Source: Gammaproteobacteria bacterium
Lineage (GTDB): Bacteria; Pseudomonadota; Gammaproteobacteria; GCA-001735895
Assembly: GCA_029862005.1 (NCBI GenBank)
Contig: JAOTYD010000013.1
Span: 1-64,000, forward strand
Direction of reading: 5' to 3'
DNA length: 64,000 bases
The position numbers and the translations under genes were made by a program. Every line of letters starts with the position of its first letter. Positions within the stretch are counted from its first letter, which is position 1. This document shows positions 6,632 through 47,228 of this stretch, one piece after another. The notes under the pieces were generated by a model. The model ran no database searches and was not told where the DNA came from. It saw only the letters and a list, made by a program, of their open reading frames with translations.

Positions 6632-6749
6632 TAATCTCGAAAACTGCCCGGATTTCTGGTGAAGGCGCCAGGCAAAAAGTTCGATAGGTGACCACGACGG
6701 GGACCCAAACACCAAAAAGCCGGTTGGGCATGCTCAACCGGCTTTTTTT
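6632..6749. repeat. Long direct repeat, copy 2, ending in a terminator
   Basis: This is the same-orientation copy of 1739-1856, about 4.9 kb away and just past the exporter adaptor gene. It shares the GGCGCCAGGCAAAAAGTTCG and CCAAACACCAAAAAGCC blocks and the terminator. Differences are single substitutions. Confidence 0.75.
6713..6749. terminator. Rho-independent terminator of the ABC exporter operon
   Basis: The arms AAAAGCCGGTTG and CAACCGGCTTTT are followed by a run of seven T residues. It lies about 360 bases after the adaptor stop codon and is the first clear terminator there. Confidence 0.82.
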
Positions 6750-6828
6750 ATTCATCTGATAACGATTATTTACTAACCCAGATTGTTGGGGTCCCCACCA
6801 TCGACAATTTGCCTTTAACCTGTCTGGA

Positions 6829-28710: not shown

Positions 28711-29451
28711 ATGCTTGCCGATATCACGCGGGGCACACAGGCACTGGCGCGGGCGCTGGGCTTGCTCAACAAACCCGGCGTTCGTATTTACGTGGTCGTG
28801 CCGCTAATGATCAACCTGCTGCTGTTCGGCGCGCTGGTCTGGTATGGATACAACCAGTTTAATCTCTTTGTTGAATGGCTAATGTCGTTCGTTCCCGGGT
28901 TCCTTGACTTTATCGCGTGGCTGATCTGGATCTTTTTCGGCGTGCTGGCGGCGATAATTGTCTTTTTCAGCTTTACCCCGGTAGCTAACATTGTCGCCGC
29001 GCCATTCAATGCCCTGATGGCGGAAAAAATCGAAATAGAGCTGACGGGAAAAGCGGTTTCATCCGAAATCAGTTTCACGCGCATGGCAATCGACGCCATT
29101 GGCTCCCAGTTACGCAAGCTGGTCTACATCATGTTCTGGGCGCTGGGACTTTTCCTCGTAAGCCTGATACCGGTGGTCAACCTGGTTGCCCCGGTGTTAT
29201 GGATCGTGTTTGGTTCATGGCTGCTGTCGCTGGAGTATTTCGATTACCCGATGGGTAACCACGATCTCGTGTTTGCGGAGCAGAAAAAACGTTTGGGCGA
29301 ACGGCGTGGAATCGCGCTCGGCTTCGGCGGCGCGGTCATGATCATGACCAGTATCCCGATCATCAATTTCTTCGCCATGCCGGTCGCGGTCGCGGGCGCC
29401 ACCCTGCTCTGGGTCGAACAACTCCAATCCAACGCACCTGTCAAAACCTGA
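28711..29451 (+). CDS. cysZ: Sulfate transporter CysZ / EI24 family membrane protein
   Basis: This 246-residue protein has long hydrophobic segments around 25-55, 65-95, 145-185 and 205-235. Family blocks FNALMAEKIEIELTG and LLSLEYFDYPMGNHDLVFAEQKKRL match CysZ, which imports sulfate for cysteine synthesis in enterics. The length is as expected. It shares a transcript with queF. The structured composite repeat begins about 100 bases after its stop codon. Confidence 0.9.
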   Translation: MLADITRGTQALARALGLLNKPGVRIYVVVPLMINLLLFGALVWYGYNQFNLFVEWLMSFVPGFLDFIAWLIWIFFGVLAAIIVFFSFTPVANIVAAPFNALMAEKIEIELTGKAVSSEISFTRMAIDAIGSQLRKLVYIMFWALGLFLVSLIPVVNLVAPVLWIVFGSWLLSLEYFDYPMGNHDLVFAEQKKRLGERRGIALGFGGAVMIMTSIPIINFFAMPVAVAGATLLWVEQLQSNAPVKT

Positions 29452-29551
29452 GATTTACCCCCTTTAAAACTTGTTCCTTCGATCGGTACCGCTATCGGTT
29501 ACTTGCTTTGACATGGCCTATCTTGAGCCTCGACCTGCTAGATCAATCCCC

Positions 29552-29683
29552 AGCTGTCTCGGCATAAGGGTCGCAAAAGGCGCTCCCAACCGGCGCAAGC
29601 GCCGGTTGGTCCATCCATGGAATCGCTTGGAGCGCGGCATCCCTGCCGCGCTACACTTTTGCGATTCTTATGCCGAGACAGCT
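29552..29683. repeat. Type A structured intergenic element, copy 1
   Basis: This is a 132-base inverted repeat. The outer stem pairs 29552-29579 with 29656-29683 (26 of 28 positions). Inside are a perfect hairpin CCAACCGGCG-CAAG-CGCCGGTTGG at 29586-29609, a conserved single-stranded TCCATCCATGGAATCG segment, and a second hairpin GCGCGGCA-TCCC-TGCCGCGC. It lies between the convergent genes cysZ and the phosphoesterase. It is related to 45734-45863. Confidence 0.85.
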
Positions 29684-29692
29684 TACTATCGA

Positions 29693-29804
29693 GGTGTGAC
29701 TACCGGTTTCTTCTTGCGGGACGCTGTGCGACAGGGATGTCGCACCGCGAGCCTACACGGACGTATTTACGGCGCTCCCGCAAGAAGAAACCGGTGGTCA
29801 CACC
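29693..29804. repeat. Type B structured intergenic element, copy 1
   Basis: This 112-base inverted repeat has 29-base arms (29693-29721 and 29776-29804) that pair at 28 positions. The top of the stem carries a small hairpin GTGCGAC-AGGGAT-GTCGCAC and a second loop region containing GGACGT. The same AGGGAT and GGACGT words, on different stems, occur in the element at 45876-46087. Confidence 0.85.
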
Positions 29805-29879: not shown

Positions 29880-30707
29880 CTAGATGTGAAGGGGTGGCAG
29901 GTTCAGGGGGTGGCCGGTTTGCTGCGCCTCGGTTTCGGGGAGAATATCGATGCTCGGCCACAGGCCGGTACCGAGGGCCTCGCCGTATTCGTGCATTCCC
30001 GCTGCCTTGGTTGATTGCTGGCTGGTCGCATAGTCGTAATCGAGCCGATGCCAGCTGATGTCCACGCCGTCATCAACCGGTTCGATCAGCATATACCAGC
30101 CGTGGGCTCCGGCATCGTTGGCCGGCATTCCGATGACCCCGGCATTGAGCCAATACTTGTCATCGATGCGCTGTCCGAACGGAATTCCCGCATGCCCGCC
30201 AATTATCGCGTCGACACCGGCTTCCCTGATCTGTGACAGCTTGGCGGCGGTATCACTCGAGGCAAATACGAACTCGTTAATGCTGGGCAAGCTTGCGTGT
30301 ACTGTTTTGAATCGTGTTCCAGACATCTCGAACTCGATGCTGCGTGGCAGCTTCTGCATCCAGCGTCGCTGCGCCACGGTCACGCGGCGATCGGCATATT
30401 GATACCAGGTCACGGCCAGAGTAGAGCAGCTACTACCCGGTTCAAAACCGCAACCGCAATCCTGCTCACTGAATGCCAGCGATTCCTCGCAGTTACCCAT
30501 AACCACGTGTATACCCCAGGATTGAATGAGGTCGATCGTTTCAGCCGGCTCGGCACAGTAGGCGACGATATCCCCGGTACAGACAACACGACCGGCCGGA
30601 ATCTCAAGTTCTTTAGCGCGTGCCTGCATTGCAACCGTCGCCTGAAGATTACTATAGGGGCCGCCAAAAATAAGCGCTTTCGCGGAAATGTTTCCGAGAT
30701 CTACCAT
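29880..30707 (-). CDS. Calcineurin-like metallophosphoesterase with altered first motif
   Basis: This 275-residue protein has the later metallophosphoesterase motifs: CTGDIVAYC (GD box, D46), MGNCEE (GNHE-like, N72), VHASLP (H137) and GGHAGIPF (GGH box, H172). The first box, normally D-x-H-G-N, reads G15-G-P-Y-S-N, so two expected metal ligands are missing. A compact cysteine cluster (DCGCGFEPGSSC, residues 83-94) might bind metal. It is predicted to be cytoplasmic. Phosphodiesterase or phosphatase activity is inferred, and the substrate is unknown. It converges with cysZ across the structured repeats. Confidence 0.75.
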   Translation of the reverse strand: MVDLGNISAKALIFGGPYSNLQATVAMQARAKELEIPAGRVVCTGDIVAYCAEPAETIDLIQSWGIHVVMGNCEESLAFSEQDCGCGFEPGSSCSTLAVTWYQYADRRVTVAQRRWMQKLPRSIEFEMSGTRFKTVHASLPSINEFVFASSDTAAKLSQIREAGVDAIIGGHAGIPFGQRIDDKYWLNAGVIGMPANDAGAHGWYMLIEPVDDGVDISWHRLDYDYATSQQSTKAAGMHEYGEALGTGLWPSIDILPETEAQQTGHPLNLPPLHI

Positions 30708-37540: not shown

Positions 37541-38581
37541 CTAGCTGCCTACTTTCAGGCGTGCAGTATTGTCATCACGTATACGCCGTGAAACGTCCAC
37601 CGCCTCGCCATTAATTTTGATTTCAACCCCGTGGCCATTTCCGAGAAATACAGAAAAAGGCGCTTCGCCCGTCAATTCCACGGAATCGCCGGCGCGCAAT
37701 AAATCGTAAACCAGCTGGTAGGAATTTGCGTCTTTGACATCAGTCCAGGTATCGGCAGTGACAACAAGTTGCAACTTGTCCGAGCCTGTGGGCGCGAGCA
37801 GCACAGGTCCGGTGCGTGCAGCCGCGGTGGTTTCAGTTACCTCCGCTTCGGAGGCTCGGGATTCGGTCTCAACTGCGACGGATTCCGCCACCACGGGCTC
37901 CGGGGCCGGAGACTCCGGTAATGCAACCGGTTCGACAACTGCCGGTTCAATGGTGTCCTCCTGGGTTGATACAGCCTCGGCAATATCCTCCTGGGTTGGT
38001 AAAGTCTCGGCAGTGTTCTCCTGGATTGGTTCAGCCTCGGCAATGTCAGTTGTTGCAACTAGTTCTTCCGATACAGCTTCGATTTCGCTGCTGATCACTT
38101 CGTCATCGGCTGCGGCACGCTGCTCCGTGGATTGAGAATCCAGTGAAATGGGTGCCTCATTGTTCTGTTCCGCGTTCCACCACCATGCGGCAAGCAACAC
38201 AGCTATGACCAGGATAACGAAGTAGGTGGTCCATTTAATGCGGGCGTCGCCGGCAGACAGCTCAGGCAAAATATTGCTGGTCGAGCTGATCGGGGGATCT
38301 TCTTCCGAATAAAAGTCCCGGTACTGCAGTATCATTTCATCCTCGTTCAGCGAAACGATACGGGCATAAGCGCGCAGGTAGCCCTTTACGAATATCGGTG
38401 CGGTTATCTCTTCGAAATTATTGTCCTCGATGGCCTTCAGGATATCGAGGCTGAGATGCATGCGGTGGGCGACATCTTCAAGAGAAAGACCCTGCTGGAT
38501 GCGGGCTGCCTGCAGCCGCTCGCCGGGACCGATAGCGGATTGCCGGGACTCGTCTCCGAGCTGTGTTTCTGTCGATTTCAT
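37541..38581 (-). CDS. rodZ: Cytoskeletal protein RodZ
   Basis: This 346-residue single-pass protein links MreB to the cell-wall elongation machinery. It has an N-terminal helix-turn-helix domain (GERLQAARIQQGLSLEDVA, about residues 20-90), a transmembrane helix (about 140-157), a long acidic and proline-rich periplasmic linker and a C-terminal beta domain (about 270-346). The linker contains a three-fold imperfect tandem repeat. The start at 38581 (MKSTETQLGD) is set by context, 1 base after the pilF stop. Confidence 0.92.
   Translation of the reverse strand: MKSTETQLGDESRQSAIGPGERLQAARIQQGLSLEDVAHRMHLSLDILKAIEDNNFEEITAPIFVKGYLRAYARIVSLNEDEMILQYRDFYSEEDPPISSTSNILPELSAGDARIKWTTYFVILVIAVLLAAWWWNAEQNNEAPISLDSQSTEQRAAADDEVISSEIEAVSEELVATTDIAEAEPIQENTAETLPTQEDIAEAVSTQEDTIEPAVVEPVALPESPAPEPVVAESVAVETESRASEAEVTETTAAARTGPVLLAPTGSDKLQLVVTADTWTDVKDANSYQLVYDLLRAGDSVELTGEAPFSVFLGNGHGVEIKINGEAVDVSRRIRDDNTARLKVGS
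37956..38045 (-). repeat. 30-bp tandem repeat (3 copies) in the rodZ linker
   Basis: Three adjacent 30-base units at 37956-37985, 37986-38015 and 38016-38045 share CTCCTGG, TTGG/TTGA and CTCGGCA words. They encode repeated ten-residue units such as AEAVSTQEDT, AETLPTQEDI and AEAEPIQENT. Copy number may vary between strains. Confidence 0.8.
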
Positions 38582-45245: not shown

Positions 45246-45304
45246 CCACAAGCATCATTGGGCCAATATTGATCAGGCTGGCAATTTACATTATTCTGAG
45301 TTGC

Positions 45305-45688
45305 ATGCCGCTTGCCGAAGACATCATCACCAGTAGCCATCGAATCACCGCCTATGACACGGGCATGATCAGCATAAACGAGGAGATATATCGTCAAAGC
45401 CTGGTCATGACGGCCGATTCTATTCTGTGTCCGTGGCCGGTTTCATCGCTTGAGCATCTCGATACGGAAACCCTGGCGCCAATATTCGATTCAAAACCAA
45501 CGGTGGTCCTGCTCGGCACCGGCGAACGCCAAATGTTTCCGGATGCCAGGATATTCGTACAGTTCGGCGAGCGGGGCATCGGCCTCGAGGTCATGGACAA
45601 CGGCGCCCTGTGCCGCACCTTTAATATCCTCGTCGCCGAAGACCGCGACGTCACCGCCGCCATCATCCTCAACGCCTCAAACACCTGA
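45305..45688 (+). CDS. Mth938-like domain protein
   Basis: This 127-residue protein of the Mth938/NDUFAF3 group (DUF498) has the typical RITAYDTGMISINEEIYRQSLVM, PTVVLLGTGERQMFP and GIGLEVMDNGALCRTFNILVAEDR segments. The human relative NDUFAF3 assists complex I assembly; bacterial members are uncharacterised. The ATG at 45305 is chosen; an upstream TTG would add a hydrophobic extension. The gene converges with rpoS across the second composite structured element. Confidence 0.88.
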   Translation: MPLAEDIITSSHRITAYDTGMISINEEIYRQSLVMTADSILCPWPVSSLEHLDTETLAPIFDSKPTVVLLGTGERQMFPDARIFVQFGERGIGLEVMDNGALCRTFNILVAEDRDVTAAIILNASNT

Positions 45689-45733: not shown

Positions 45734-45863
45734 GCTATCCCGGAATAAAGCTCGCAAAAGACGCTCCCAACCGGCGCGCGCGCCGGTTGGTCCATCCATG
45801 GAATCGCTTGGAGAGCGGCACGGATGCCGCGCTCCACTTTTGCTGGCTTTATTCCGGGATAGC
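45734..45863. repeat. Type A structured intergenic element, copy 2
   Basis: The outer stem pairs 45734-45760 with 45837-45863 (25 of 27 positions). The inner hairpin CCAACCGGCG...CGCCGGTTGG at 45767-45790, the conserved TCCATCCATGGAATCG segment and a GCGGCA/TGCCGC hairpin match copy 1 at 29552-29683. The outer-stem sequences of the two copies differ at several positions, and both arms change together. Confidence 0.85.
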
Positions 45864-45875
45864 TACCCACGGTAG

Positions 45876-46087
45876 AGGCAACCGAAGAGACTCATTGCGA
45901 CATAAAGACCGGGTGCTGAAAAATGCTTGTTTTTAAAGGGTCAGGCCGCAGGGATGCGGTGGTCCGACACATCGGCTGAGGCGATCCGAGACAAGGACGT
46001 CGAGTCTCGCCGTGCCCTTTAAAAACAAGCATTTTTCAGGTAGCCGAAGGCCACCCGGTCAGTCGCAATGAGTCTCTTCGGTTGCCT
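45876..46087. repeat. Type B structured intergenic element, copy 2
   Basis: This 212-base nested palindrome has outer 26-base arms at 45876-45901 and 46062-46087, an ACCGGGTG/CACCCGGT step, and inner 25-base arms at 45916-45940 and 46015-46039 that pair perfectly. At the tip are CCGC-AGGGAT-GCGG and a CGAGAC...GTCTCG hairpin whose loop holds GGACGT. These two loop words are shared with 29693-29804. Confidence 0.88.
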
Positions 46088-46145
46088 GTACAGAGTTCGA
46101 AGGATTGTGGGCCGGGTTGTCGGCCTAGTAAGCGCGAGAGCGGTG

Positions 46146-47228
46146 TTATTCTTCGATTATGTTTTCGCGCGAGTAGCCGCTGTGCTCGAGGATGCGACGC
46201 AGCTTGCGCAGTGCATCCATCTGGATCTGGCGCACGCGCTCACGGGTGACACCGAGCTCGAGCCCAACCTCCTCCAGCGTACCGCGCGCGTGATTGCGCA
46301 GACCAAAGCGGCGTACCACAACATCCCGCTGCTTCTCATCGAGTTCGTCGAGCCAGCTGTCAAGGTGCGCTATCACGGATTCATCCTGCAGAATAACAGA
46401 TGGATCCGCATTATTATCGTCAGGGATAACGTCGAGTAGCGGGCGTTCACCCTCACCGCCCATCGGAATATCGAAGGAGGAAACACGATCAGCGAGCTTG
46501 AACATTTTCTCGACGTCTTTTACCGGTTTCTTCAGCAACCTGGCCACGTCCTCGGGCGTTGCCTCCCGGTTCAATTCCTGGGTGAGTTTTCGTGCCGCCC
46601 TGAGGTAGGTGTTCAATTCCTTGATCACGTGAATCGGCAACCTGATAGTGCGTGTCTGGTTCATCAGGCCGCGTTCTATGGTTTGCCTGATCCACCAGGT
46701 GGCATAGGTTGAAAAACGAAAACCGCGCTCAGGATCAAATTTTTCGACCGCGCGGATCAGGCCCAGGTTGCCCTCTTCGATCAGATCGAGTAGCGCCAGC
46801 CCGCGATTCATGTATCGTCTCGCAATCTTGACGACCAGGCGCAGGTTACATTCGATCATTTTATCGCGCGCCGCGGTGTCACCTTTTAACGCGAGCCGCG
46901 AATAGTGGACTTCCTCTTCCGCGGTCAACAGTGGTGAAACTTCTATTTCCTTGAGGTAGAGCCGGGTTGGATCTGCATCCGATGAGCGACGTGTCGTCGT
47001 CTTGCGACGATCCGTTTCAGGCTTGCGTCGATCGACAAATTTCTCACTCTCGGTGGCGTCCCCTTCGCCCGCTCCGATCGTAGTGATCTCTTCTACTTCG
47101 TCTTCGTCTCCATCCTCGACATCGGCTTCCAGATCGGTCGCTTCCTCATCGTCGACAAGATCCTCTACCAACTCTTCTGGCGGTATTTCGGTATCTTCGA
47201 TAAGAGACTTATCGGTCGATTTAGTCAT
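46146..47228 (-). CDS. rpoS: Stationary-phase sigma factor RpoS
   Basis: This 360-residue sigma-70-family factor directs the general stress response. It has region 1.2 ([17 protein letters not shown]), region 2 ([27 protein letters not shown] and [17 protein letters not shown]), region 3, and region 4 ([22 protein letters not shown]). The first 60 residues are an acidic extension longer than in E. coli. nlpD lies 12 bases upstream. In enterics and pseudomonads the main rpoS promoter is inside nlpD, which is likely here too. The composite structured repeat follows its stop codon. Confidence 0.96.

Follow-up and report, generated by a model that had tools for sequence, protein, structure and literature searches.

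We found that the two branched hairpin structures in the window, by which we mean the whole 64,000-nucleotide stretch of DNA analysed here, are copies of a dispersed element, type A, which resembles the known TwoAYGGAY RNA. The reading that we prefer, with a probability of about 0.6, is that type A is a TwoAYGGAY-like RNA element dispersed over the 3' ends of genes and, judging from its loops, bound by CsrA. The structured-RNA part of this reading is strong. The host genome is a 4.0-Mb gammaproteobacterial metagenome-assembled genome (MAG) of 105 contigs and marine origin, and the relatives with which it was compared are gammaproteobacterial MAGs from marine and sediment sources.

Copy 1 of type A, which is intact, lies at 29552-29683 and is supported by genome search, covariation and a sub-threshold match to RF01731; copy 2 lies at 45734-45863 and is supported by direct comparison of the copies and by the hairpin survey. 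In both, the GGA strand, which is probably the functional one, is the minus strand, and both sets of coordinates agree with the preliminary description. On the minus strand, type A consists, in order, of an outer stem (about 22 bp, variable), AAAAG, the hairpins P2, P3 and P4, CTTTT and the returning outer stem; the conserved core, inside the 22-bp outer stem, has 86 nt. In copy 1, a hypervariable outer arm ending in the A-tract AAAAG (29552-29579) is 93% complementary to the opposite arm (29656-29683), and the pairing is borne out by covariation in 53 copies. P2 (29631-29652, AGCGCGGCAGGGATGCCGCGCT on the minus strand) carries the first ANGGAN loop, AGGGAT, and P3 (29610-29621, TCCATGGATGGA on the minus strand) carries the second, ATGGAT, both as judged from the type A alignment and loop counts. 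P4 (29586-29609, CCAACCGGCGCTTGCGCCGGTTGG on the minus strand), recognized by covariation and loop counts, has a variable loop without GGA. The branching that had been noticed earlier is therefore present, but with three internal hairpins instead of two. In copy 2, the outer stem is intact and the P2 hairpin at 45810-45834 is inverted, so that the GGA strand reads CATCCGTG and loop 1 is lost (alignment, L021). Such an inverted P2 loop occurs in only one of 53 type A copies, and copy 2 keeps one GGA loop on that strand; the idea of two equivalent copies, implied earlier, is thus not supported, copy 2 being damaged. The in-place inversion at 45810-45834 may be a trace of template switching. As previously described, the two window copies share an identical 33-nt stretch, CGCCGGTTGGTCCATCCATGGAATCGCTTGGAG, and their outer arms differ and covary (CTCGGCATAAG/CTTATGCCGAG versus CCCGGAATAAAG/CTTTATTCCGGG). 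The minus-strand folding energies correspond to z = -10.1 for copy 1 and -9.8 for copy 2, and none of 200 shuffled sequences was as low.

That the fold itself is maintained, as had been proposed from the two copies, was borne out by an alignment of 53 type A copies in which 52 pairs were scored. Two-sided changes were found at 33 of the 52 pairs and, within the outer stem, at 26 of 29; a few lie in P2, P3 and P4, and P2 swaps tandem GA with CG/CG (at columns 36-37/50-51, about 40% of the copies depart from CG/CG, mostly to GA/GA). The covariation score was 0.429, compared with 0.126 for shuffled alignments (reached in 0 of 500 shuffles) and 0.05-0.09 for slid pairings, and 93.5% of the cells pair, compared with 78.1% after shuffling and 34-46% after sliding. 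Type B elements, described below, gave 0.529 against 0.169 (0 of 500 shuffles, 21 copies), and the stems of type C are 94-96% paired within a copy and 65-73% between copies. The identical 33-nt core could suggest that the window copies were duplicated recently and that their structure is not under selection. However, a genome-wide search, proposed in the preliminary description as a check, found about 30 type A copies in the own genome rather than the two loci only. The left arms of these copies are 47% identical to each other and the core 91%, whereas within one copy the Watson-Crick complementarity between the arms is 92%, compared with 49% for an arm and the opposite arm of another copy. 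This explanation, to which we assign almost no probability, is refuted by the covariation in the 53 copies together with compensatory changes at orthologous loci in relatives.

These changes were seen in 21 pairs of orthologous copies, defined as pairs matched by both flanks. Per site, the two flanks diverged by 25% and 17% and each stem arm by 21%, compared with 8% for the core. Among 122 changed stem pairs, 49 were in-place double replacements of one Watson-Crick pair by another, whereas about six would be expected by chance; the remainder were 29 one-sided changes that kept a standard pair, 34 single breaks and 10 others. The excess of double changes shows that pairing is maintained. These are old copies in which the core is under constraint and the stem is required only to pair. 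Because the stem diverges at 21% and the core at 8%, the unlike stems need no special mechanism of insertion. We had considered that the core, which is alike between copies, was inserted into pre-existing terminator hairpins with unlike stems, and these rates, together with a shared stem consensus (GCYRYCYCGGGG), make this unnecessary. Part of the restoration of the stem may be mutational, by template switching, as the inverted P2 loop of copy 2 would illustrate.

Regarding the strand, G.T cells exceed A.C cells in the stems when the GGA strand is read, at 58:14 in type A, 29:0 in type B and 37:6 in type C, with orthologues in these counts not independent; for type A of the own genome alone, the excess is weak (14:8, p = 0.29). 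The evidence from wobble pairs and loops that the GGA strand is the functional strand is strong but not conclusive, and it places the probable RNA on the minus strand and not, as the earlier reading implied, on the plus strand. Loop 1 has A(N)GGA in 51 of 53 type A copies, three of them without the N base, and loop 2 in about 49 of 53. Variation in the GGA loops is mainly at the N positions, and the P4 loop varies freely in the same 53 copies. The stricter AYGGAY pattern fits loop 2 in 44 copies and loop 1 in 21, the latter being otherwise mostly AGGGAY, that is, ANGGAN. In contigs C1 and C13, the 447-kb sample used for the hairpin survey, 9 of the 11 perfect hairpins with ANGGAN-type loops were inside type A, B or C elements.

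Both window copies have a neighbour that had been missed earlier and that is a relative of type A. These neighbours, of types B and C, lie on the strand opposite to type A, and each type has a core and variable stems of its own along with two ANGGAN loops. The type B element (29693-29804, plus strand, loops AGGGAT and ACGGAC), supported by covariation in 21 type B copies, is the head-to-head partner of copy 1. The type C element (45872-46091, plus strand), recognized as a TwoAYGGAY relative by a sub-threshold RF01731 match, is the head-to-head partner of copy 2 and has two nested variable stems, the inner of which, with the core, spans 45916-46039 (plus strand, by stem comparison). The A/B pair lies between cysZ (28711-29451, plus strand, named via NCBIfam) and a converging unnamed gene without an NCBIfam match (29880-30707, minus strand). 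The A/C pair lies between an unnamed gene (45269-45688, plus strand), which is kept beside rpoS in most genomes of the genus, and the converging rpoS (46146-47228, minus strand, NCBIfam). Genes at both loci were called with a home-made coding score, on which the two unnamed genes rest.

The own genome has about 30 type A, seven type B and four type C elements, and 13 of the 17 long-stem inverted repeats listed in the 447-kb sample were A, B or C (one type C being counted twice because of its nested stems). Convergent gaps hold 19 of the 30 own type A copies but make up 24 of the 130 intergenic gaps of that sample (p = 3e-6); divergent gaps are avoided. Among 58 cases of adjacent elements, 55 are head-to-head and none is tail-to-tail. 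This count includes orthologous pairs from several species, and the own genome by itself gives about 10 of 12. With copy 1 as the query, 11 of 30 other members of the genus were matched (G005 weakly), several of them with at least 15 matches. Outside the genus, the same DNA query gave a single marginal match (G047). The element is missing from many genomes of the genus, which counts against our reading, the relatives being MAGs whose possible incompleteness may affect such presence/absence counts. In viral contigs, the core patterns of types A and B had no exact matches; in plasmids, the type A core had none either.

The elements come and go at orthologous loci. The cysZ locus has A< B> in the own genome (G000), B< A> in G002 and none of the three types in G025, G004, G006 and G018. 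In G016 and G023 (L157 and L159), two head-to-head type C elements (C< C>) occupy the convergent gap in which the window has A and B. The rpoS locus has A< C> in G000, G020 and G007, C< A> in G030, G009 and G002, and no elements in G013, G025, G001, G006 and G029. By eye, the inner stems of the type C elements at the rpoS locus (CTGAAAAA...GTTTTT.AAGGG, then GTGCCC) are alike in both orientations, which suggests that the pair was inverted as a unit and not inserted separately.

At gathering thresholds, Rfam gave nothing in the window. RF01731 (TwoAYGGAY), with a gathering cut-off of 43 bits, matched copy 1 at 29545-29690 on the minus strand with 23.2 bits, and type A of the own genome scored 23-33 bits, all below the cut-off (best 32.9 bits, C1:125153-125296). 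The window type C scored 37.8 bits (45909-46046, plus strand, E = 3.2e-4), also below 43 bits, and other type C elements exceeded the cut-off (G000:C2:138570, 52.3 bits; C38:9705, 48.2 bits; C2:101207, 47.7 bits; one in G002, 66.7 bits). RF01731 matches over the cut-off were found in 13 of 57 relatives, and those inspected in the genus are type C. Class-wide, among 229 genomes, RF01731 was over the cut-off in 11, and R1, our type A model, whose E-values are rough, matched in 14 other genomes, often several times per genome. At least three loci were matched by both models, for example G108:C7:20006, in another family (44.6 and 56.6 bits). In most of the distant loci that we refolded, long perfect stems, which are unlike between copies, enclose two GGA hairpins, with no apparent P4 hairpin; L193 and L200, whose matches are so close to the end of a contig that the folded stretch was misplaced, were left out of this inspection. 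Multi-copy elements with two GGA loops and long perfect stems, without P4, were seen in other gammaproteobacterial families at L191, L194, L195 and L196 (G124, G102, G108 and G230). Low-score Rfam matches such as mir-214, ncS025 and Ysr224 were taken as chance matches to long hairpins.

TwoAYGGAY (RF01731, clan CL00106; Weinberg et al. 2010, PMC2864571) shares with the present elements two AYGGAY-type hairpins and a long, poorly conserved outer stem, as well as tandem GA, gammaproteobacterial hosts and the type C relatives over the cut-off. Type A itself has the two AYGGAY-type hairpins, tandem GA in part of the copies and the 22-bp stem of low conservation, but it adds a third hairpin and reaches only 23-33 bits. 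CsrB/CsrC and RsmX/Y/Z are said to belong to the Rfam clan of TwoAYGGAY. They share with our elements several ANGGA hairpin loops per RNA; each of them, however, is one sRNA gene that has a promoter and a terminator of its own, whereas here dozens of two-loop elements are without promoters. No promoter consensus was seen at either window locus, and 60 non-redundant copies have sharp ends with nothing conserved beyond them and no conserved upstream sequence, which led us to reject a promoter of the element's own. Neither window locus has a convincing intrinsic terminator, one weak consensus match in the type B stem apart. The Alcanivorax sRNAs CsrR1 and CsrR2 were also considered and set aside, as the parts of their description consulted (PMC9788540) mention no dispersed copies. 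In the open-licence papers searched, we did not find descriptions of about 30 copies per genome, head-to-head pairing, convergent location or invertible pairs.

According to our preferred reading, the element, located mainly between convergent genes, would be read out within the 3' transcripts of the flanking genes. A long outer stem on the GGA strand would present two short ANGGAN-hexaloop hairpins, together with the third, GGA-free hairpin in type A, and the two loops together would form the site for one CsrA/RsmA dimer. Each copy would then be a predicted CsrA site in a gene 3' end, acting in cis on the mRNA, for instance on its stability, or titrating CsrA in trans. The outer stem would be kept as a duplex only, its sequence drifting at the local rate with pairing restored. 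With the head-to-head order, each of two convergent transcripts would carry exactly one sense element, the distal one. The host genome encodes a homologue of CsrA, a global regulator (N-terminus of the homologue, MLILTRRVGE). The ANGGAN hexaloop is the loop of RsmE-RNA structures, and the SELEX consensus is RUACARGGAUGU (PMC7652899); type A loops fit both. For TwoAYGGAY, CsrA binding was proposed, and tandem GA noted, by motif analysis (PMC4333381). Against our reading, copy 2 persists despite the loss of one GGA loop, and very stable hairpins are under-represented among CsrA SELEX ligands (PMC7652899). An extended version, in which the elements form a class-wide invertible 3'-end module of paired CsrA sites, a network of titration or mRNA-end control whose stems diversify by template switching yet remain paired, is quite improbable as it stands.

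One alternative is that the elements are bidirectional terminators or BIME-like 3'-end stabilisers of mRNA, with the GGA loops incidental. The strong preference for convergent ends, the very stable stems and the AAAAG/CTTTT beside GC-rich hairpins on both strands would suit such a role, but the near absence of a terminator consensus does not, and neither the conservation of ANGGAN twice beside a free P4 loop nor the one-strand wobble preference would be expected; we consider it unlikely. Equally doubtful, as a sole cause, is that hairpin-templated repair (quasi-palindrome correction by template switching) keeps the arms complementary instead of functional selection. Paired stem sites change at the rate of the flanks, which is fast for purely selective compensation, and this process could produce the inverted P2 loop of copy 2 and inverted whole pairs. 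However, it leaves the slow core, the ANGGAN loops and the one-strand excess of G.T over A.C unexplained. Such repair and selection may act together.

The elements might also be mobile DNA hairpins (MITE- or REP-like) that fold as single strands for transposition, RNA being irrelevant. REP/BIME sequences with RAYT are likewise dispersed palindromes at gene 3' ends that form inverted pairs. The dispersal of the copies points this way, as do their gain or loss at sites that are orthologous, their sharp ends without conserved sequence beyond and the presence in the genome of two genes for Y1 (RAYT-like) transposases. Nevertheless, neither Y1 gene is adjoined by an A, B or C element or a GTAG-type palindrome, and the elements differ from REP/BIME in the missing RAYT linkage, variable stems, conserved loops and larger size. 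As to MITE features, the arms differ in every copy, which would leave no fixed terminal repeats for an enzyme; empty sites exist, with gaps too diverged for a target-site duplication to be read. Furthermore, the loop constraint matches ANGGAN exactly, and mobility of this kind seems rather improbable to us.

Other repeats were seen besides these elements. A separate 118-nt repeat at 1745-1862 and 6636-6753 of the window (87% identical, 4.9 kb apart, with the terminator-like end hairpin AAAAAGCCGGTTGNGCATGCNCAACCGGCTTTTT) may represent the duplication of a small RNA or of a 3' region. A 30-bp repeat in three tandem copies lies within a coding region at 37953-38047, and another dispersed palindrome, GTCATCCCGCGGCTCGCCCGCGGGATCC-like and unrelated to A, B and C, is at G000:C1:233973-234060 and 274563-274646.

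Since 2010, TwoAYGGAY has remained an orphan among RNA families. Its relatives are here placed in a dispersed multi-copy system with its own rules, namely convergent gene ends, head-to-head pairs, strict loops and stems that are free yet paired, and its proposed link to CsrA thereby becomes directly testable. The copies also serve as natural replicates showing the drift of a stem under a pairing constraint. If the elements titrate CsrA, dozens of gene ends, rather than a few sRNAs, would supply its binding sites.
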